Source: Streptomyces curacoi (lineage in GTDB: Bacteria; Actinomycetota; Actinomycetes; Streptomycetales; Streptomycetaceae). From it: a DNA stretch of 64,000 nt. The position numbers and the translations under genes were made by a program. The notes beneath the pieces were generated by a model. It was not told the DNA's origin. It was given only the letters and a program-made list of their open reading frames with translations, and ran no database searches. Of this stretch, positions 52,560 through 61,318 are shown in pieces. Each line of letters starts with the position of its first letter. Position 1 is the stretch's first letter. Where the stretch lies: assembly GCF_001513975.1 (NCBI RefSeq), contig NZ_KQ947988.1, positions 310,001 to 374,000 of the forward strand, read 5' to 3'.

Positions 52560-53468
52560 CTACACCTGCGACGGCATCCAGTCCCGCGCCTTCTCCACCA
52601 GCAGATCGTGCAGGCCGGCAAGGCGCGGGTCGGACAGCGACCCGCAACGGGTCGCGAGATAGAAGGTGTTGATGGGTGGCAGCTCGGGCTCGATCAGCGT
52701 GACCAGTTCTCCGCAGGCGAGTTCACGGGTGCACAGATAGGTCGGGACCACCGAGATACCGGCGCCGGCGACGACGGCGGCGATGACTGCCCGCAGATCC
52801 GGTACGACCACGGCCGGATGCTCGGGCGGAGGAGTTTCGAACACGGTCCGCCAGTACCGGCGGATGAGGGGCACGGTCTCCGCATACGCGATCAGCGGAA
52901 CCTTCTCCAGCGCCCGCGGTCCGTCGACCGCGAGTGCTCCGGCGGGGAGACCGTCGGCGACCTGGGGCGCGGCGACGAGGGCGAACTCCTCGTCGGTCAG
53001 CGGGATTCCGTCCACGCCACGACATCGGGGCTGGATGGTGGAGATCACTATGTCCAGGTGGCCGCTCTTGAGGTCGGCCAGCAGCTCCGACGACTCGCCG
53101 AGACTGACGCGTACGTCCAGCCCGGAGGCGATCAGTGAGCTGATGGAAGGCAGGAGGCGGGCGGTGACCAGTTCCGCGGGCCCTCCGATGCGCAGGGGCC
53201 GGTTGCTCGGCGTCTGCTCGAAGTGGCGTCTGATCGCCGCGTTGATCTGGGTGATGGAGCTCTCGATGTCATGAGCAAGGGCTTTCCCTTCGACTGTCGG
53301 TACCGCCCCTTGTGGTGTACGGTCGAACAGCGGCTTCCCGAGTTCGCCCTCCAACCCGCGGATGTGCTGCGTGACCGAGGGCTGAGTGATACCGAGCTGC
53401 CGCGCGGCTTTGGTGAACGATCCTGTGTGATAGACGGCTATGAATGTTTGCAGCCATCCCAGTTGCAT
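52560..53468 (-). CDS. LysR-family transcriptional regulator
   Basis: A 302-residue regulator. The start was set at ATG 53468 (MQLGWLQTFIAVYHTGSFTK), giving an HTH of standard length (AARQLGITQPSVTQHIRGLE); the upstream extension has no domain. The effector domain (RPLRIGGPAELVTARLLPSI, VVPDLRAVIAAVVAGAGISV) follows the periplasmic-binding fold. It lies at the edge of the gene cluster at 53.7-61.3 kb, on the same strand as its left arm, and is the only regulator there. I infer that it controls the cluster through the dyad at 56715-56768. Confidence 0.9.
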   Translation of the reverse strand: MQLGWLQTFIAVYHTGSFTKAARQLGITQPSVTQHIRGLEGELGKPLFDRTPQGAVPTVEGKALAHDIESSITQINAAIRRHFEQTPSNRPLRIGGPAELVTARLLPSISSLIASGLDVRVSLGESSELLADLKSGHLDIVISTIQPRCRGVDGIPLTDEEFALVAAPQVADGLPAGALAVDGPRALEKVPLIAYAETVPLIRRYWRTVFETPPPEHPAVVVPDLRAVIAAVVAGAGISVVPTYLCTRELACGELVTLIEPELPPINTFYLATRCGSLSDPRLAGLHDLLVEKARDWMPSQV

Positions 53469-53550
53469 GTCATCCGGCCCCCCGTTGCCGGCACAGGGAG
53501 GCCGTGCCCAAGTCGGTGCGGTGCACGCCATCCCCCGTTGTTGATCTGGT

Positions 53551-53580
53551 ACGTACATGGCCTTTCTTGTAACGTACATG
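53551..53580. promoter_or_regulatory. Direct repeat ACGTACATG, 21 bp apart, upstream of the LysR gene
   Basis: Two identical ACGTACATG units at 53551-53559 and 53572-53580, spaced by two helical turns, 83-112 bases before the LysR start. A candidate autoregulatory or effector-regulator site. Confidence 0.5.
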
Positions 53581-53681: not shown

Positions 53682-54350
53682 CTAGGCGGCGGAGGACTGG
53701 CGGATGGCCAGCTCGGCCACCTTGGCCGCCGAGGCCGGGTTCTGACCCGTCACCAAGCGGCCGTCGGCCACCGCGTGTTCGGCGAAGTTCCCCGTCTTGG
53801 TGATCTTGGCGCCCTTCTCGATCAGCGCGGTCTCAAGCGCGAACGGAACCACGTCGCTCAGCCCGACGGCGTCCTCCTCCTCGTTGGTGAACGCCGAGAC
53901 CTGCTTGCCCTGCACGATCGGTGTGCCGTCGGCCAGCGTGACCGGCAGCAGACCGGCCGGGCCGTGGCAGACGGCCGCGACCACGCCGCCGCGCCGGTAG
54001 ATCGCCGACGCCAGTTCGGCCAGCTCGGTGGCGGCCGGGAAGTCCCACATCGTGCCGTGGCCACCGGCGAAGTAGATCGCGTCGTAGTCGGCGGCGTCGA
54101 GCTGGTCGGCGGTCGGGGTGTTCTTCAGCTCCTCGGCATAGGTGTCGAGGAACGCGGCGGAGACGGTGTCACCGTCCTTGACGCCGTCCCGAGGTGCTTC
54201 GCCGCCCTTGACGGAGACGAAGGCGATGTCCCATCCGGCCTTGGTGAACACCTCGGTGGGGTGGGCGACTTCGGGCACGTAGAAGCCGGTGGCACGGCCG
54301 GTGTCACCGAGCTGGTGGTGGGAGGTCAGGGCGAAGAGAACCTTCGGCAT
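53682..54350 (-). CDS. DJ-1/PfpI-superfamily protein, Hsp31-like
   Basis: A 222-residue protein starting MPKVLFALTSHHQL at ATG 54350 (AAAGGAAG upstream). The DJ-1 nucleophile elbow is VVAAVCHGPAGLL with Cys128 and His129; a Glu is present in YVPEVAHP, and FAGGHGTMWDFP is the Hsp31-type loop. Hsp31-like members show glyoxalase III or deglycase activity and respond to reactive carbonyls. It is the last gene of the left arm (cupin, DJ-1, HAD, this gene), 29 bases after the HAD gene. Its substrate in this cluster is unknown. Confidence 0.88.
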   Translation of the reverse strand: MPKVLFALTSHHQLGDTGRATGFYVPEVAHPTEVFTKAGWDIAFVSVKGGEAPRDGVKDGDTVSAAFLDTYAEELKNTPTADQLDAADYDAIYFAGGHGTMWDFPAATELAELASAIYRRGGVVAAVCHGPAGLLPVTLADGTPIVQGKQVSAFTNEEEDAVGLSDVVPFALETALIEKGAKITKTGNFAEHAVADGRLVTGQNPASAAKVAELAIRQSSAA

Positions 54351-54379: not shown

Positions 54380-55111
54380 TCAGGCCGTGAGAGTGGCCAG
54401 TTCGGGCAGGTACACGCGCCGCTGCCGGCGGGCGATGGCGCGTTCGATGTGGTCCTCGGTGTGGTAGCCCCACCAGGCCCACAGGGATCGGGCCCCGGTG
54501 TCGCGGACGGCGAGCGCGTTGGTGATGTGGTCGTCGATGAAGGTCACCGCCTCGGCGGGCAGACCGTCGTTGTCCGCGAGGCGCAGGACGGCCGTGCGCT
54601 TGTCGGAGCAGTCGCCGATCACTTCGACCACGGTGTTCTCCAGCCGGTAGTGGGCCAGGATCTCCCAGACCGAAGCGGCGTCCTTGGCGGTGACGATCGA
54701 CGTGCCGCGCCCGCGGTGCCGGTGCAGCAGCTCATGGATGCCGGGGTAGAGGGTGTGCATGTCCAGCCAGGTGTCCGGCTGTTCCTGGCGCAGCGCGGCC
54801 CGCACGGCGGTCGCGCCCGCGGTGAGGGCGCTGAGCTTCTTGGGCGGGATGCGGGACAGCAGCGCTTCGTAGTCGTCGTTCGTCCGGATGGCCTCGGCGG
54901 CGGGACTGCGGGCGACCATGAAGTCCTCCAGCAGCCGCGCGTATCTGCGCACGGTGCGGAACCTGTCCAGGAAGCTCCTGGGCATCGCGTCGGCCAGTTC
55001 ACGGATCGGTTTCGCGGCGATCTGCCCGGGGTCGTGGTCGGCGTAATAGGTGACCAGTGCGCATTCGGTGAAGGCGTCGGCGATGACGCCGTCGAAGTCG
55101 AGTACCAGCAA
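54380..55111 (-). CDS. HAD-superfamily hydrolase
   Basis: A 243-residue HAD protein. The start is TTG 55111, with GGGGGA six bases upstream; this places the catalytic LLVLDFDGVIADAF motif (Asp5, Asp7) at the N-terminus. A helical cap follows (ADAMPRSFLDRFRTVRRYARL), then STSIVTA-type motif II (GTSIVTAKDAASV), Lys and the DDHITNALAVRD acidic motif. The family hydrolyses phosphate esters or C-halogen bonds; the substrate is unknown. The mid-region (WGYHTEDHIERA) and length suggest a phosphatase. It is part of the left arm of the cluster. Confidence 0.86.
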   Translation of the reverse strand: MLVLDFDGVIADAFTECALVTYYADHDPGQIAAKPIRELADAMPRSFLDRFRTVRRYARLLEDFMVARSPAAEAIRTNDDYEALLSRIPPKKLSALTAGATAVRAALRQEQPDTWLDMHTLYPGIHELLHRHRGRGTSIVTAKDAASVWEILAHYRLENTVVEVIGDCSDKRTAVLRLADNDGLPAEAVTFIDDHITNALAVRDTGARSLWAWWGYHTEDHIERAIARRQRRVYLPELATLTA

Positions 55112-55242
55112 AGGTGATCCCCCAAAGGTCGGTCCGGGGGTGCGGGGCGCCGGCTCTGTTGGCCGGGGGCAGCCGTCTCCGGCGCCCCGCACGATTCAGG
55201 CGGCAGTCCTCCCGGCCCGCCGGGCGGCGGGCGGGCCGGGGG

Positions 55243-55800
55243 TCAGGCCGCTGCCTGGGCCGTGGCCTCGGTCTTCGCGGCGACGGTGGCGAAGACCTGC
55301 TGCATGAAGCGGCCGACGTAGGCGTAGTACGAGCAGGTGATGATGTGGCCGTCCACGATCACATCGGAGTCCACCACGTTCGCGCCGGCGTTGATGACGT
55401 CGTCGCGCAGACCGATGTAGGCGCACGCGGTGCGGCCCTTGAGGACTCCGGCGGAGACCATGATCCACGGCCCGTGGCACAGGCCGGCGACGACCTTCTC
55501 GGCGGTGTCCATGGCACGGACGAAGTCGAGGACATGGGCGTCCTGGCGCACGCGGTCGGGAGCCTCGTGGCCGCCGGTGAGGATGACCGCGTCGTAGTTG
55601 CGAGCGTCGAGCTGGTCGAAGGCGACCAGCGGCTTGGCGGTCTTGTCCATCGGAAGCGGCACACCGTACTTGCCGACGACATCGGCGCCGTTCTTGGTGG
55701 CGACGTCCACGTTCCAGCCCTCTTCGATGAGCCGGTAGTAGGTGTAGACGACGTCGTGGTCCTGGAATCCGGGGCCGGTGATGATCACGGCACTGGGCAT
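55243..55800 (-). CDS. DJ-1/PfpI-family protein, 185 aa
   Basis: A 185-residue single-domain DJ-1 protein. The elbow is VVAGLCHGPWIMVS with Cys108 and His109; ILTGGHEAPDRVR lies beside it. The N-terminus PSAVIITGPGFQDHDVVYTY is unlike the usual glutamine-amidotransferase entry and more like the PfpI/YraA proteases and isonitrile-hydratase-like group. It differs clearly from the 222-residue Hsp31-like protein in this cluster, so the two are not a recent duplication. It is placed between the cupin and HAD genes. Confidence 0.87.
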   Translation of the reverse strand: MPSAVIITGPGFQDHDVVYTYYRLIEEGWNVDVATKNGADVVGKYGVPLPMDKTAKPLVAFDQLDARNYDAVILTGGHEAPDRVRQDAHVLDFVRAMDTAEKVVAGLCHGPWIMVSAGVLKGRTACAYIGLRDDVINAGANVVDSDVIVDGHIITCSYYAYVGRFMQQVFATVAAKTEATAQAAA

Positions 55801-55841: not shown

Positions 55842-56615
55842 TCAGGCCAGGGCGAGGGAGAGGTAGTACTGGTCCAGCGCCGGGCGCCGGTCGTCCGCCT
55901 GGGCGGGGGCGAGGATGTCGATCTCGCCGGTGACCACACCGGTCAGGCCGAGCGGGACGTGGAACAGATCGCTCTGCTGGCGCCGGTAGAAGATGTCGGC
56001 GCCCGCGCGGATGGAGAAGGTGAACTCGCCGTCGGGCGACCGCTCACGCAGCCGGGCCTGCGGCAGATAGGAGACCGGCTTGGCCGGCAGCTCGGGAGCC
56101 TCGGTGTGCTCGGTCTCGTACGCGGTGTGCTCCCGGCTGTAGTTGTCCCGCAGCCGGATCAGGTCGAACTTGTTGCGCGGCGCCTCGATCTCGACCAGCC
56201 AGAGCGGGCCCGGGCCCAGGCTCCGAGTGGAGTGGAAGGCCCCGCCGCCGATGCGCAGGATCGTTCCCGCACCTACGGGGTGCTGGTCGGTGAGGGTGTC
56301 GGTGACTCCCTGGCCGGCCAGGCACAGCAGATAGGTGAGCTTGCGGGGATGGACATGCATCGAGGTGGACTGTCCCTCGTTGATCTTCAGGTTCCAGACG
56401 TCGATGAAGTCGTCCACGTAGATGCGGTACTCCATGCCCCACGGCTTGGGGATGACCTCGTTGAGGTGGTCGTCTCCGTCCAGGGTCTCGTTGCCGATCC
56501 GGCTTCCCTTGCGGACGACCTCGTTGAGGGCGGAGAAGTCACGCGGGCCCGGGTCGATCCGGGTCACCCGCTCGCGGGTCTGGGTTGCTGTCAGGCCTTG
56601 CGTCAGCTCGGACAT
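55842..56615 (-). CDS. Cupin-domain protein
   Basis: A 257-residue protein with a cupin core: EYRIYVDDFIDVWNLKINEG, then the metal-site motif SMHVHPRKLTYLL (His pair) and the second motif GAGTILRIGGGAFHSTRS, with a further His. The arrangement fits single-cupin sugar-isomerase, sugar-binding or oxygenase-like proteins. An extra C-terminal domain (RAGADIFYRRQQSDLFHVPL) is present. It is the first gene of the left arm, whose promoter must lie in 56616-56861. It could act on a sugar- or amino-acid-like intermediate. Confidence 0.82.
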   Translation of the reverse strand: MSELTQGLTATQTRERVTRIDPGPRDFSALNEVVRKGSRIGNETLDGDDHLNEVIPKPWGMEYRIYVDDFIDVWNLKINEGQSTSMHVHPRKLTYLLCLAGQGVTDTLTDQHPVGAGTILRIGGGAFHSTRSLGPGPLWLVEIEAPRNKFDLIRLRDNYSREHTAYETEHTEAPELPAKPVSYLPQARLRERSPDGEFTFSIRAGADIFYRRQQSDLFHVPLGLTGVVTGEIDILAPAQADDRRPALDQYYLSLALA

Positions 56616-56861
56616 GAGGATGCTCCCCCTTCGGTGTCGGCTGCGTCCCCCCGGCCGACAACGAACCTAGGGACCGGAGGGAGGAGATCCAAATAGCCGA
56701 CGCGCCAGGCCCCCATAACGAGCATTGGCCCTGAAGTCCTGCCAATGCCCCCCTGCTCGAACAGTTATTTGAAAGCCGGTCCGGAGGGATGTGAGGGTCA
56801 CGGAGCAGGCCCCCGCCACGGCAGGGGCACGGTCGTCTCCTTCGAGGAAGGGAAGCACGCT
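56616..56861. promoter_or_regulatory. Bidirectional promoter/operator region of the accessory cluster
   Basis: A 246-bp gap from which both arms of the cluster are transcribed. It contains GCATTGGC (56722-56729) and GCCAATGC (56741-56748) with an 11-base spacer, flanked by ATAAC (56715) and GTTAT (56764), giving a wide, symmetrical dyad. The region nearest the right-hand gene (56785-56861) shows several GGAGGG/GAGGAAGG segments that could be ribosome sites. I see no other palindrome. LysR-type regulators typically bind such interrupted dyads and activate divergently. Confidence 0.6.
56715..56768. promoter_or_regulatory. Long interrupted dyad, candidate LysR operator
   Basis: Perfect 8-bp arms (GCATTGGC / GCCAATGC) with an 11-base centre, extended outward by ATAAC and GTTAT. 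The T-N11-A layout with an 11-base centre is what LysR regulators recognise. Confidence 0.6.
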
Positions 56862-57671
56862 GTGAGCACACCTACTCCCGCCCGCGGACGCCAGATCACT
56901 CCCGAGCCCCGGACGCCGGGAACCATCACCACCCAGATCGACTCCATCGGCATCCTGGGCTATGAGTCGGTCTCCGAACAGGACTGCCTCACGCCCACCG
57001 AGATCTTCAAGGGCACCGCGATGGTGCTCAACGGATCCATCGCCCCCTGGCAGCGGGAAGCCGCCCCCCGGGACCTCGACGTGCGTCTGGTCGCCCTCGA
57101 ACCCGGCGTCGTGAAGATGCAGATGGGCACCAATGTCGTCCCCGACGGCGTCCTGTCGGAGGACGACCTGTTCGACATCTTCTACATCCCCGGCGGTGTC
57201 GGCTCGGCCGCGCTGCTGTCCGACGAGCGCGTGCTGAAGGCCATCCGCCGGCACCACGAAGCCGGCAAGGTCATCGCCGCCAACTGCTCCGGCGTCGGCG
57301 CGCTGGCCCGCTCCGGCATCGTCAACGACGAAACCCTCACCTCCGTGGCCGCCATCGCCCGCGGCATGCGCGGCGAGGGCTTCGACGTGCCGGAGAACCG
57401 CCGCATGTGGGTCGCCCATCCCGCCTCGCGCATCTGGACCTTCACCGGCTCCTACGGCATCAACGGCGGTGCCGTCGCCCTGGTTGCCCACTACTTCGGC
57501 CGCGAGGTCGGCACCATCGTGTCGATGATGTTCGACACCTACGGCGGTATCGGCGACGCCATCTTCGAAGAGGTCGGGCCCGAGTTCTACCACCACCCCG
57601 AGCTGGAGGAGGCCTTCCAGAACCTCTTCGAGCCGATGCTCTACCCGGCCAAGACCGACGACGCGCTCTGA
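56862..57671 (+). CDS. GATase1/DJ-1-superfamily protein, PfpI or isonitrile-hydratase-like
   Basis: A 269-residue DJ-1/GATase1 protein. The GTG at 56862 has GAGGAAGGGAAG upstream. The N-terminal core (TTQIDSIGILGYESVSEQDC) and the elbow KVIAANCSGVGALARSG with Cys142 define the fold; YIPGGVGSAALL is the oxyanion loop region. The closest named pattern is isonitrile hydratase (InhA) and AraC-associated DJ-1 domains. It is the first gene of the right arm. This is the third DJ-1-superfamily member within 4 kb. Confidence 0.84.
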   Translation: MSTPTPARGRQITPEPRTPGTITTQIDSIGILGYESVSEQDCLTPTEIFKGTAMVLNGSIAPWQREAAPRDLDVRLVALEPGVVKMQMGTNVVPDGVLSEDDLFDIFYIPGGVGSAALLSDERVLKAIRRHHEAGKVIAANCSGVGALARSGIVNDETLTSVAAIARGMRGEGFDVPENRRMWVAHPASRIWTFTGSYGINGGAVALVAHYFGREVGTIVSMMFDTYGGIGDAIFEEVGPEFYHHPELEEAFQNLFEPMLYPAKTDDAL

Positions 57672-57691: not shown

Positions 57692-58840
57692 GTGGCTACC
57701 CAGGTCACACCCGTCTTCCTCCGTGACCTCAACTGGATACGCGGAGCCCTGCAGACCGCGGTGGCGCTCGAACACTCCACCATGCCGCTGTACTGCGCGG
57801 CCATGTACTCCCTGGAGGTCCAGAACTACCCCTCCTACAACACCATCCGCTCCGTGCTGATGGAGGAGATGGTCCACATGGCCATCGCCGCCAACATGGT
57901 CGCCGCCCTCGGCGGCACACCGCAGATCGCCACCCTCAACCCCACCTACGCCTCCCGAGGCCTGCCCGGCGGCGTCGCGCCTGATCTGCCGGTCATCCTG
58001 GCGCAGCTCTCACCACGCTCGCTGGAGAACTTCATGCGCCTGGAAGCGCCGGAGTTCATGCTCAACGCCCGTCAGCGCGCCGCCGTCTACCCGACGATCG
58101 GCGCCTTCTACGACGCGATCCGTGAGGCGATCGACAGCCACAAGGACGCCCTGCGGCGCGCCGTCGAGCAGGGCGGGCCGGCCAACCAGGTCGGCGGCAA
58201 CCTGGGTTACCTCACCTTCGAGCCGGCCGAGGGCGTCGACCCGGTGGAGAAGTTCCACGCCGGGCTCGACATCATCACCGAGCAGGGCGAGGGCCAGGGC
58301 CAGGGGACCGTGGAAGCGGGCGAGGACTTCCAGAAGGAAGGCTCTCACTACGCCCGCTTCGCCGAACTGCGCTACGGCCGCCGCTACCTCGCCCCCGACG
58401 GGGAGACCGAGATCTCACGGGAGAACGAGGCGCAGTTCTTCCAGGGCGAGGAGATCGTGTGGCCGGTGGTCATCAACACCCTCGCCGTGCCCTCCGACGG
58501 CTACCGGGCCGTCCTCGACAACGATCCGAGCGCCCCGGAGGTCCGCAAGGAGCTCGAAGGGTTCGACGACGCCTACACCCAGATGATGGCCGCCCTCGAC
58601 CGGGCGTGGAACGGGCCGGTGGAGACCTGGTGGCCGTCGCTCGGGGCGGCGGTGACGCAGATGGACCAGATGCGCGTCCGGTCCTGCTTCAACATCATGC
58701 GCCACCCGGTCCCGGAGCGGGCCATCAGCCGGCTCGAAGCCCTGTACCCCACCCAGTTCAAGGCACTTGAGCGGTACACCGATCTGACCCGGCCCGTCTT
58801 CTACGGCCCCCGTTTCATCAACAACAACGGCGGCCGCTGA
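57692..58840 (+). CDS. Ferritin-like protein of the VioB/RebD (PF12902-type) group
   Basis: A 382-residue protein starting at GTG 57692 (AGAGGGGGC upstream). The metal-site pattern is that of the ferritin-like domain found in iminophenylpyruvate dimer synthases: ALEHSTMPLYCAAMYSL with Glu27, and IRSVLMEEMVHMAIAANMV with Glu58-Glu59 and His62. Later, EDFQKEGSHYARFAEL resembles the second half of the helical bundle. In VioB, RebD and StaD such a domain couples two imino acids in violacein, rebeccamycin and staurosporine synthesis. Here it lacks the large N-terminal catalytic domain of VioB, and no tryptophan oxidase is nearby. It is expected to bind a diiron or haem cofactor. Confidence 0.75.
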   Translation: MATQVTPVFLRDLNWIRGALQTAVALEHSTMPLYCAAMYSLEVQNYPSYNTIRSVLMEEMVHMAIAANMVAALGGTPQIATLNPTYASRGLPGGVAPDLPVILAQLSPRSLENFMRLEAPEFMLNARQRAAVYPTIGAFYDAIREAIDSHKDALRRAVEQGGPANQVGGNLGYLTFEPAEGVDPVEKFHAGLDIITEQGEGQGQGTVEAGEDFQKEGSHYARFAELRYGRRYLAPDGETEISRENEAQFFQGEEIVWPVVINTLAVPSDGYRAVLDNDPSAPEVRKELEGFDDAYTQMMAALDRAWNGPVETWWPSLGAAVTQMDQMRVRSCFNIMRHPVPERAISRLEALYPTQFKALERYTDLTRPVFYGPRFINNNGGR

Positions 58841-58959
58841 GCACCCGATGCCGTCCGGTGGCCTGCGCCCGCAAGCCACCGGACGGCATCCGCCGCGCCC
58901 CCGCACACCAAGGGCGTCCACCGACACAGCCACTGCTACCTAAGGGGAACGTCACCGCT

Positions 58960-60171
58960 GTGCCACGCAAGTCCCATCACCTCCCGCTGGGCGGTCTGCT
59001 GGCCCTGGCCACGGCCGGGTTCCTGACCATGCTCACCGAAACCGTCCCCGCCGGTCTCCTCGGCGACATCGGCGGCGGACTCGCCGTGTCCGAATCCCAG
59101 GCCGGACAGCTCCTGACGATCTACGCCGCGGGCTCCGTGCTGGCTGCGATACCCCTGACGAGCCTCACCCGCGGCCTCCCGCGGCGGCCCGTCCTGGTGA
59201 CCACCGTCGCGCTCGTCGCCCTGGTCAACCTCCTCACCGCCGTCTCCGACTCGTACGCGCTGACCATGGCGGCCCGCTTGATCGCCGGTATGGGCGCGGG
59301 CGTGCAGTGGGCCATGATCGCCGGATACGCCATGCGCCTGGTCGACGAGCCCGTCAAGGGCCGGGCGCTGGCCATCTCCATGGCGGGCGTGCCCACCGCC
59401 CTGGCCCTCGGCGTGCCCCTGGGAACGTACGCCGGAAGTCTCCTCGGCTGGCGCTACACCTTCGCCGTCATGGGCGGGCTCGCCCTCGTCGTCGCCCTGT
59501 GGATCTCCGCCACCGTCCGCCCGTTCCCCGGCGAGGAAGCCGCCACGCGCATCCCGTTGCGCCGCGTCTTCCTCCTGCCGGGCCTGGCCGCCATCCTGGT
59601 CTCGGCCCTGCTGTTCGAGATCGGCCACATGAACCTCTACACCTACATCGACCCCTACCTCCGGCGCGCCGGGCTCGGGGACGCGGTCGGTCCCGTCCTG
59701 CTCGCCTTCGGTGTCGCCGCCATGGCCGGCCTGTTCGCCGCCGGAGCGTTCATCGACCGGAACCTGCGCGCCGTCGTCGTGGGAACCCTCGGCCTGTTCA
59801 CCGCCTGCATGGCCCTGTTCGGCCTGCTCGGTACCGAGGCATGGCCGGTCGTCGTCGTCATGTTCGGCTGGGGCTTCGCCCTCGGGCTCGCGCCGACCAT
59901 GTTCCAGGCCTCCTCCGCCCGCGCCGCCGGATCCGCGGCCGACATCGCCCAGGCCATGATCGTCACGGTGCTGAACGCGGGCATGTCCATCGGCTCCGTC
60001 ACCGGGGGCATCGCCCTCGACGTCGGTGGCGTCGACACCCTTCCGTGGATCTCCTGCGCGGTCTTCGCCGTTGCCCTGGCCATCGCCCTCGGCGCCCGCC
60101 GCAACGCCTTCCCCGCACCCGGCGCCGCGCCCGTCGCGCAGCCGGCGACCGAGCGGGAGGGGGTGGCATGA
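58960..60171 (+). CDS. MFS exporter, drug:H+ antiporter-like
   Basis: A 403-residue transporter with about 12 helices. The GTG at 58960 is preceded by TAAGGGGAA 11-12 bases upstream. Typical features: FLTMLTETVPAGLLGDIGGGL near the N-terminus, motif A-like RGLPRRPVLVTTVAL and motif C-like GYAMRLVDEPVKGRALAIS with PLGTYAGSLLGWR. The layout is that of the arabinose-efflux/CynX-like MFS subfamily used for sugar or small-molecule export. Its position in the cluster points to export of the cluster's product or of a toxic intermediate. Its stop overlaps the VOC start (ATGA). Confidence 0.9.
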   Translation: MPRKSHHLPLGGLLALATAGFLTMLTETVPAGLLGDIGGGLAVSESQAGQLLTIYAAGSVLAAIPLTSLTRGLPRRPVLVTTVALVALVNLLTAVSDSYALTMAARLIAGMGAGVQWAMIAGYAMRLVDEPVKGRALAISMAGVPTALALGVPLGTYAGSLLGWRYTFAVMGGLALVVALWISATVRPFPGEEAATRIPLRRVFLLPGLAAILVSALLFEIGHMNLYTYIDPYLRRAGLGDAVGPVLLAFGVAAMAGLFAAGAFIDRNLRAVVVGTLGLFTACMALFGLLGTEAWPVVVVMFGWGFALGLAPTMFQASSARAAGSAADIAQAMIVTVLNAGMSIGSVTGGIALDVGGVDTLPWISCAVFAVALAIALGARRNAFPAPGAAPVAQPATEREGVA

Positions 60172-60638
60172 GCCGCTTCTATCACGTCTGTTTCGTCGTC
60201 CCCGACCTGGAGGCCGCGATGCGGGACCTGTCCACCGCCGCGGCCGTCGAGTGGCGCGAGCCCATGGCGGCGTCGATCGGTGAGTGGGACTACCGGATCG
60301 TGTTCACCGCCGGAGGCGAGCCGTTCATCGAACTCATCGAAGCCCCGCCCGGCGGCCCGTGGGGCGACACCGATGAGCCCCGCTTCCACCATCTCGGCTG
60401 GTGGACCTCCGACATCGACGCCGGTACGGACCGGCTCGCCAAGGCCGGTTTCCCCCAGGCGTTCAGCGGATGCCCCTACGGCCGCCCGTTCGCCTACCAC
60501 CACATCGACAGCATCGGCGGACACGTCGAACTGGTCGGACACGGCCGCCAGCCCAGCTTCATCGACGCCTGGAACCCCGGCGGTGACCGGATGCCCGCCA
60601 TCAACGAGGAGGCCCACCCGTGGAACCCGTCACACTGA
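60168..60638 (+). CDS. VOC/glyoxalase-fold protein
   Basis: A 156-residue protein starting at ATG 60168 inside the MFS stop codon. It has the VOC layout: SRFYHVCFVVPDLEAAMRDL, IVFTAGGEPFIELIEAP, then the second half RFHHLGWWTSDIDAGTDRLA and GGHVELVGHG. His and Glu residues at the usual metal positions (His in HVCFV, Glu in EPFIELIE, His in HHLGWW, Glu in HVELVG) suggest an active metallo-enzyme, such as a glyoxalase or dioxygenase. It overlaps the SDR gene by 19 bp, so MFS, VOC and SDR are one translational unit. Confidence 0.85.
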   Translation: MSRFYHVCFVVPDLEAAMRDLSTAAAVEWREPMAASIGEWDYRIVFTAGGEPFIELIEAPPGGPWGDTDEPRFHHLGWWTSDIDAGTDRLAKAGFPQAFSGCPYGRPFAYHHIDSIGGHVELVGHGRQPSFIDAWNPGGDRMPAINEEAHPWNPSH

Positions 60639-61318
60639 TCACCGGCGGCTCGACCGGCATCGGCGCCGAAACAGCCCGCCGCCTGCTCGAGCAGGGCCAC
60701 CGGGTCGCCGTCACGGCCCGTCGCGCCGACCGGCTCACCGAGTTCGCGCGCAGCACGGACGTGGACAGCGACCGGCTCATGACGCTGCCGGGCGACACCG
60801 GCGACGCCGAACACGTGCGGCAGGCCGTCCGGATGACCGCACAGTCCTGGGGGCGGCTGGACAACGTCATCGTCAACGCCGGCTTCTCCCTGCCGGGCAC
60901 ACTCGCCGACCACCTTCCCGAGGCCATGCGCTCGATGATCCTCACCAACGTGCTCGGCCCCGCACTCGTCGTGCAGGCCGTGCTGCCGCACCTGAAGGAG
61001 ACCAAGGGACGACTCGTCCTGGTCGGCTCCGTCGCCGGCGTGAAGAACACCCCGGGCAACCTGTACTCGGTCACCAAGTGGGCCGTGCACGCCCTCGCCG
61101 AGAACACCCGCCTCATGGCCACGGCCGACGGCGTGGGCGTCACCCTGATCGCGCCGGGCATGGTCGACACCCCGTTCTGGGAGATCCGCGGCGGACGGCC
61201 CGACGCCCCGACCATGACCGCCGCCCAGGTCGCCGACTGCGTCCTCTTCGCCCTCAACCAGCCCGCGGGCGTGGACATCAACCACCTCCAGATGCGGCCC
61301 GTCGGACAGCTCAACTAG
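60620..61318 (+). CDS. SDR-family oxidoreductase
   Basis: A 232-residue classical short-chain dehydrogenase. The cofactor site is LITGGSTGIGAETARRLLEQ, the Asn of NVIVNAG is present, Ser is in LVLVGSVAG and Tyr-Lys in NLYSVTKWAVHALAE. It reduces or oxidises a carbonyl/alcohol with NAD(P)H. It begins inside the VOC gene and is the last gene of the right arm, followed by a perfect bidirectional terminator. No other redox enzyme of the cluster is adjacent. Confidence 0.88.
   Translation: MEPVTLITGGSTGIGAETARRLLEQGHRVAVTARRADRLTEFARSTDVDSDRLMTLPGDTGDAEHVRQAVRMTAQSWGRLDNVIVNAGFSLPGTLADHLPEAMRSMILTNVLGPALVVQAVLPHLKETKGRLVLVGSVAGVKNTPGNLYSVTKWAVHALAENTRLMATADGVGVTLIAPGMVDTPFWEIRGGRPDAPTMTAAQVADCVLFALNQPAGVDINHLQMRPVGQLN

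Follow-up and report, generated by a model that had tools for sequence, protein, structure and literature searches.

A rare stand-alone PF12902 ferritin-like protein encoded beside a DJ-1 family gene in Streptomyces

The function of the PF12902 ferritin-like domain is, to our knowledge, known only from VioB and from the chromopyrrolic acid synthase RebD/StaD, both of which contain it. The two RebD-like proteins used here as controls share their invariant residues with the stand-alone ferritin-like protein described below (FLP), but they are much larger (1087 aa encoded at locus L091 and 1068 aa at L105, against 382 aa for FLP) and fall in a different part of the family tree; an amine oxidase gene identified by Pfam lies directly upstream in L091, and a similar gene, judged by eye, precedes the RebD-like gene of L105. 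In excerpts from the literature, VioB is described as having catalase activity with haem b and, as of 2021, no known structure (a review, PMC9705886), RebD as being both a catalase and a CPA synthase (PMC10076799), and haem as present in CPA synthases (PMC10851217). The solved structure closest to FLP is that of CC_0557 from Caulobacter (PDB entry 3HL1), likewise a stand-alone PF12902 protein, which matches the FLP model over its whole length (268 residues, VIA Z 22.7) and in which equivalents of E27, E59, H62, E200 and H219 can be read from the profile alignment. It differs from FLP in that identity in the structural alignment is 24%, the printed alignment has no equivalent of E216, and the entry title gives no function. 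Bacterioferritins have in common with FLP a helical bundle and the ligand order E, ExxH, E, ExxH, but they match the FLP model at a Z of only about 10, a value that the structure-comparison tool grades as ambiguous when the fold is a helical bundle. FLP differs further in its additional C-terminal helices and its metabolic gene neighbourhood.

The window, by which we mean the whole 64-kb stretch of DNA that was analysed, encodes FLP on its forward strand at positions 57692..58840, as assigned from the open reading frame, Pfam, an alignment and an AlphaFold model. The frame is open throughout, and its GTG start is preceded by a purine-rich AGAGGGGG stretch. PF12902 is the sole Pfam family on FLP and the domain is complete, residues 20–227 matching profile positions 1–220 of 221 with 161.6 bits (E 3.3e-47) against a curated cut-off of 22.3 bits. 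This HMM search bears out the ferritin-like domain that an earlier, sequence-only reading of the same DNA had proposed, and the coordinates, strand and motifs given in that reading are correct, the EHS motif being E27 and H28 and the EEMVH motif E58, E59 and H62. No PF12902 place besides FLP was found in its own genome (8.4 Mb, 31 contigs). The gene is genuine, and FLP is an uncommon, well-conserved variant within a family already known.

The AlphaFold model of FLP was built from 16 orthologues and has a moderate mean pLDDT of 71. Its best solved match is 3HL1 (Foldseek E 8.5e-6; Foldseek matches below rank 2 are noise with E > 0.5), and among the VIA-align matches listed 3HL1 is at the top and is followed by ferritin-like entries, with bacterioferritins coming after it; that other families are missing from these lists is given no weight. 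The model thus points to the four-helix ferritin-like bundle expected from the sequence-only reading. At the sequence level, the FLP-family profile also matches bacterioferritins (9viw with E 1e-5 and 1nf4 with E 6.7e-5), and a profile search of PDB sequences returned no PF12902 relative other than 3HL1.

The residues E27, E59xxH62, E200 and E216xxH219 of FLP reproduce the E, ExxH, E, ExxH order of a bacterioferritin-type ligand set, in which the EHS and EEMVH motifs provide E27, E59 and H62, and the set is completed by E200 in a QGEG motif and by E216xxH219 in EGSHY. In the model, E27 lies in the helix spanning residues 8–29 and E59xxH62 in that spanning 46–72, while E200 ends the helix 184–200 and H219 starts the helix 219–228, with E216 just ahead of it. 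Seven residues are invariant in all 55 aligned family rows (E27, E59, M60, H62, E118, E200 and H219). The E216xxH219 pair is kept in all 17 rows of the FLP clade. Of the other rows, 26 of 36 have an ExxH in this stretch, as does one of the two RebD-like rows. The aligned ranges start at model residue 10 and bacterioferritin residue 1, so that E27 would, if the alignment is ungapped, presumably equal bacterioferritin residue 18, a di-iron ligand. M60, next to E59, resembles the Met haem ligand of bacterioferritin; haem-free ferritins likewise carry Met at this position, and for this reason the invariance of M60 is not counted as evidence for haem. Ligand-residue conservation together with the fold match suggests that FLP likely has a bacterioferritin-type di-metal site, in which the metal would most likely be iron. 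By analogy with VioB and RebD, both reported as haem proteins, haem may have a role in FLP.

The VioB model TIGR04492, which has 1003 positions and a cut-off of 1250 bits, gives 19.4 bits on FLP over positions 669–831 only, so the rest of VioB is absent, and the sequence-only reading was right that the large catalytic region is missing; no VioB-model match was found in the FLP genome at E 0.001. It was also right that no amino-acid oxidase gene lies beside FLP, in that the amine-oxidase family PF01593 was absent by Pfam from 19 other genes scanned at 39.3–62.5 kb of the window, on both sides of the permease stretch at 43.5–45.4 kb; one of the 19, encoding a GMC protein at 46.5 kb, matches DAO over a short length and below the cut-off of that family. 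In a tree of 55 PF12902 rows (17 of the FLP clade, 36 others, one of them, L110, fused to a propeller, and two RebD-like), for which the program warned of several long branches, the FLP clade forms one side of a branch with 100/100 support and a stem of 1.21, and both RebD-like rows fall among the other paralogues. Twelve full-domain PF12902 matches, FLP included, were found in 296 actinobacterial genomes with at least 115 bits each, the other 15 places listed being partial and below 28 bits. The frames of the twelve span 372–1015 codons, the 1015-codon frame holding a predicted 370-aa gene, and all are too short for, or predicted without, a VioB-sized protein. FLP matches occur in 20 of 61 near-relative genomes, in one of which (G015) the match is through a RebD-like protein only, and five of the 61 hold a VioB/RebD-type protein that scores about 500 bits, under the VioB cut-off; three of these five (G004, G018 and G035) also hold a shorter PF12902 relative. 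The sequence-only reading had presented FLP as a VioB/RebD-type protein without its usual partners. This presumes that the VioB/RebD form is the usual one, when all twelve full-domain matches stand alone; FLP belongs to a clade of its own away from the two RebD-like rows, and its actual partner was overlooked. The description of FLP in that reading is right, and its framing as a VioB orphan is not borne out.

That partner is a DJ-1/PfpI protein (DJ1_a; 56862..57671, + strand; Pfam, alignment and model) whose gene stops 20 bp upstream of FLP on the same strand and which has a conserved Cys in an NCSG motif and Glu/Asp in an SEQD motif. Its GTG start at 56862 was placed from the alignment, the mechanical ORF opening at 56745. 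Cys122, Glu19 and Asp21 (in the numbering of 56922–57668) are invariant in 15 rows. For the model of DJ1_a (pLDDT 87.8), the Foldseek E-values of human DJ-1 and of a Clostridium relative (both 2.9e-12) hardly differ from that of isocyanide hydratase (3non, 4.7e-12). DJ1_a is likely a hydratase or hydrolase of some kind.

A single scan of genome contigs with short FLP peptides gave 17 FLP loci (L022–L038), and in 16 of these a DJ1_a relative with 45–87% identity lies at most 2 kb from FLP, the exception being a locus from a MAG (L032). Among 295 congeneric genomes, seven have FLP (E up to 1e-60) and eight have DJ1_a (E up to 1e-30), namely the same seven, where DJ1_a is at most 2 kb from FLP and 63–100% identical, and one that has only two DJ1_a matches of 29–35% identity and no FLP. 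The naive chance of finding the same 7 of 295 genomes is 2.8e-14, a value that ignores shared ancestry and is not taken as a probability, and the locus and genus samples overlap and are not independent (L039 is L022 and L042 is L028 at 100%, and L041 is 98% identical to L027). The linkage survives rearrangement, the two genes being co-directional in the loci termed type A below, whereas those of type B lie on opposite strands and are separated by an MFS gene. Two of 18 FLP-clade loci have no neighbouring DJ1_a, L032 and L107, the latter on a Burkholderia plasmid. In L032 (6490–9125) the FLP-clade gene immediately follows a gene of the animal haem peroxidase type (PF03098), with no DJ-1 neighbour found, and in L107 (11971–16128, from Burkholderia pyrrocinia) the FLP-clade gene, with 54% identity, lies beside RebB R-body genes, again with no DJ-1 neighbour. 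The FLP stretch of L024 as translated holds a stop, and this copy may be broken or misread. PDB entry 3FSE combines DJ-1 and ferritin-like folds in one chain and is a weak match to DJ1_a; the FLP-family profile does not match it at E up to 1, and nothing therefore assigns its ferritin-like half to PF12902. No published ferritin-like/DJ-1 gene set was found in the open-licence literature searched, and we make no claim that the set is unpublished.

Divergent from DJ1_a in the window is a minus-strand gene for a 257-aa cupin protein (55842..56615; Cupin_2 25.5 bits, just under the cut-off of 27.2), and it is followed on the same strand by genes for DJ1_b, a PfpI-type DJ-1 family protein of 185 aa (55243..55800), a HAD-family hydrolase of uncertain start (54380..55192; HAD_2 27.3 bits, cut-off 23.8), DJ1_c, an HSP31/glyoxalase III-like DJ-1 family protein (53682..54350; start placed at M45 of the mechanical ORF), and a LysR-family regulator whose true start is probably further in (52560..53579). 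On the plus strand behind FLP are genes for an MFS transporter (58951..60171, start likewise placed by us) and an SDR-family oxidoreductase (60620..61318); DJ1_b, DJ1_c, LysR, MFS and SDR were all assigned with Pfam. Three of the 16 DJ-1 places over the cut-off in this genome thus lie within 3.7 kb at the FLP locus. The GMC and aldehyde dehydrogenase genes at 46.5–49.8 kb look, with the OpuAC and ABC ATPase genes, like a choline/betaine operon, and they have no counterparts near FLP in the other type A loci described below. No PKS or NRPS gene was found among the window genes scanned. The conserved set does not include the PEP-mutase-like gene at 41.7 kb. Anti-phage defence was also considered, and no PADLOC family was matched by six proteins of the FLP gene set.

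DJ1_c is present in 16 of the 17 FLP loci, LysR and SDR in 11 each, the cupin, DJ1_b (over at least 73% of the chain) and HAD in 10 each, and the window MFS in four. Two arrangements can be distinguished. In type A (the window and L022–L031), LysR, DJ1_c, HAD, DJ1_b and the cupin are encoded on one strand and DJ1_a, FLP and SDR on the other; behind FLP there is an MFS gene of the window type in L022–L025, a different MFS gene in L026–L029, and none between FLP and SDR in L030–L031. In type B (L033, L035–L038 and G308/L089), where the gene calls are partly rough, one strand carries a GMC oxidoreductase and DJ1_a, in most cases with SnoaL and another DJ-1, and the other strand carries an MFS, FLP, DJ1_c and another MFS, joined in some loci by an aldo/keto reductase. 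Type B loci encode a GMC that differs from the window GMC, to which it is 30–35% identical. A fused ABM-glyoxalase-fold protein is encoded in some loci of both types and, in the Actinoplanes locus L034, between DJ1_a and FLP. None of the window flanks (malate dehydrogenase downstream; WYL, MarR-GNAT and MST upstream) has a match above 150 bits in the L022–L038 stretches, and since no tested flanking gene recurs there, the gene set seems to be placed at different sites. It is probably transferable.

The divergent gap between the cupin and DJ1_a genes contains a candidate operator (56690..56771) made of the inverted halves CAAATAG (56690) and TTATTTG (56765). Of ten type A loci examined (the window included and L025 left out), eight have halves of this type at a spacing of 73–74 bp, and the other two, L030 and L031, keep only TTAT at this spacing and have TTATTTG 95 bp away. 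The 64-kb window has three instances of the heptamers CAAATA[AG] or [CT]TATTTG, of which two are in this gap; a stricter pattern, from which the window differs in the first base, had no match in it, and the motif was not found in the six type B or Actinoplanes stretches searched. A natural guess is that the halves form a putative LysR operator. The motif is a side argument, and its count leaves the odds of the readings discussed below unchanged.

Part of the set also exists apart from FLP. Eight of the 295 congeneric genomes encode the cupin; FLP accompanies it in six and is missing from the other two, where the cupin identity is 53–55%. The two FLP-less Streptomyces loci (L087, 8589–15426; L088, 8928–17227) contain the cupin, DJ1_b and HAD and, after them, a gene judged by eye to be transporter-like, an SGL-like protein (below the cut-off), glucose-6-phosphate dehydrogenase and DJ1_c, the Pfam annotation of this pair having been run on L087. 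The Rouxiella badensis plasmid NZ_CP060593.1 has two copies of the cupin, DJ1_b (67%), HAD (24%) and DJ1_c, with LysR and MFS, in the same gene order as the Streptomyces set (L108, 18730–21511; L109, 10543–13220). Both copies lie near arsenic-resistance genes, and one looks damaged, matching HAD and DJ1_c in separate pieces only. No FLP or DJ1_a match was found in the Rouxiella module loci, and a blastn search of E. coli genomes with the module as it occurs in Rouxiella gave no match. Because the cupin–PfpI–HAD–HSP31 unit occurs without FLP, it is a unit of its own that FLP and DJ1_a have joined in type A, and the claim that FLP defines the pathway is weakened. The unit can be viewed as an unnamed module present in two phyla.

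Elsewhere, PF12902 family members tend to neighbour oxidases, and oxidases such as these typically make H2O2. A GMC oxidoreductase adjoins the PF12902 gene in 10 of 36 paralogue loci and comprises 534–645 aa where gene limits are available. The GMC-linked stand-alone PF12902 proteins are like FLP in size, domain and C-terminal helices, but they are about 30% identical to it and their partner is a GMC flavoprotein, not a DJ-1 protein. A LodA_N protein is encoded near one PF12902 gene (a single locus tested), and an excerpt of a paper on lodA genes places PF12902 genes near lodA in fungi (PMC4417212). In L110 (2110–6951), from a Rhizobium leguminosarum plasmid, PF12902 is fused behind a BNR/YCF48-like propeller in a 909-aa protein whose gene has genes for a LodA_N protein and a radical SAM protein nearby. 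In L111 (4041–12863, Mycetohabitans) and L114 (786–7047, Gloeothece), stand-alone PF12902 genes directly follow a family of 633–662 aa that has no Pfam match at E 0.01, and they lie near ebo-type genes (TatD and 3-dehydroquinate synthase-like, with EboE in L111).

We propose, tentatively and somewhat short of an even chance, that FLP is a di-iron enzyme, an oxidase or peroxidase, whose substrate is a small reactive metabolite, and that DJ1_a carries out the next step; we infer here the identity of the metal, the oxidase chemistry, the substrate, the order of the steps and the control by LysR. FLP, a stand-alone protein with a putative di-iron site, would oxidise a small metabolite using O2 or H2O2. 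DJ1_a, the second member of this two-enzyme unit and an enzyme with a conserved cysteine, would then convert what FLP has made (a carbonyl, imine or isonitrile-like compound) by hydration or hydrolysis. This second step is weakly constrained because DJ-1 family members have many activities. The cupin, PfpI, HAD, HSP31-like and SDR enzymes would process the same reactive compound, the MFS pump would export it, and LysR would regulate the set. It is plausible that FLP is an oxidase or oxygenase for a substrate other than those of VioB and RebD, as the sequence-only reading had suggested. The main rival, which is possible though rather less probable, is that FLP makes no product of its own and serves as a partner that consumes peroxide, in the manner of a peroxidase or catalase, within a stress set directed against reactive carbonyls, quinones or oxidants. 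This would agree with the catalase activities that the excerpts report for VioB with haem b (PMC9705886) and for RebD (PMC10076799), with the oxidase neighbours of PF12902 genes (GMC in 10 of 36 loci, LodA_N in one, amine oxidase at L091 and, in the excerpt cited, fungal lodA, PMC4417212), and with HSP31-like, PfpI and glyoxalase-fold neighbours that suit carbonyl defence. However, the window GMC has no homologue in ten type A loci (E 1e-8) and the type A set yielded no other flavin oxidase; a gene as rare and patchy as this one (7 of 295 genomes) would be unusual for a general stress function, and the linked transporter and SDR suit a specific compound better.

Two further readings are considerably less probable. 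FLP could be a VioB/RebD-like haem enzyme that couples imines supplied by an amino-acid oxidase encoded elsewhere, and the common Pfam family and the presence of the seven invariant residues in the two RebD-like proteins fit such a role; we regard it as quite improbable, given the different place of FLP in the tree, its 19 bits against the VioB model, the lack of an amine oxidase in the scan of the 19 other genes and of a VioB-model match (E 0.001) in the genome, and the size of the RebD-like controls with, in the one checked, an amine oxidase directly upstream. An iron-storage or Dps-like function, to which the ferritin-like fold and the bacterioferritin-type ligand residues could point, is the least probable and indeed very remote, for the conserved region of FLP past residue 260 aligns with 3HL1 whereas most bacterioferritin rows stop by model residue 259, and FLP is rare and kept in one metabolic gene set. 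To return to the oxidation followed by a DJ1_a step that we prefer, its more ambitious form, in which FLP–DJ1_a is an undescribed module where a di-iron FLP oxidises a small amine or alcohol, the cysteine enzyme DJ1_a hydrates the product, and the pair forms the core of an unrecognised pathway spread among actinobacteria, seems unlikely, a little more so than the peroxide-consuming role.

Through a small stand-alone PF12902 protein that has a full set of di-metal ligand residues and a linked partner enzyme, the role of the domain could be tested apart from the 1000-residue synthases. The linkage between FLP and DJ1_a, from which the main interest of the locus derives, offers a route to the substrate and makes the function testable.
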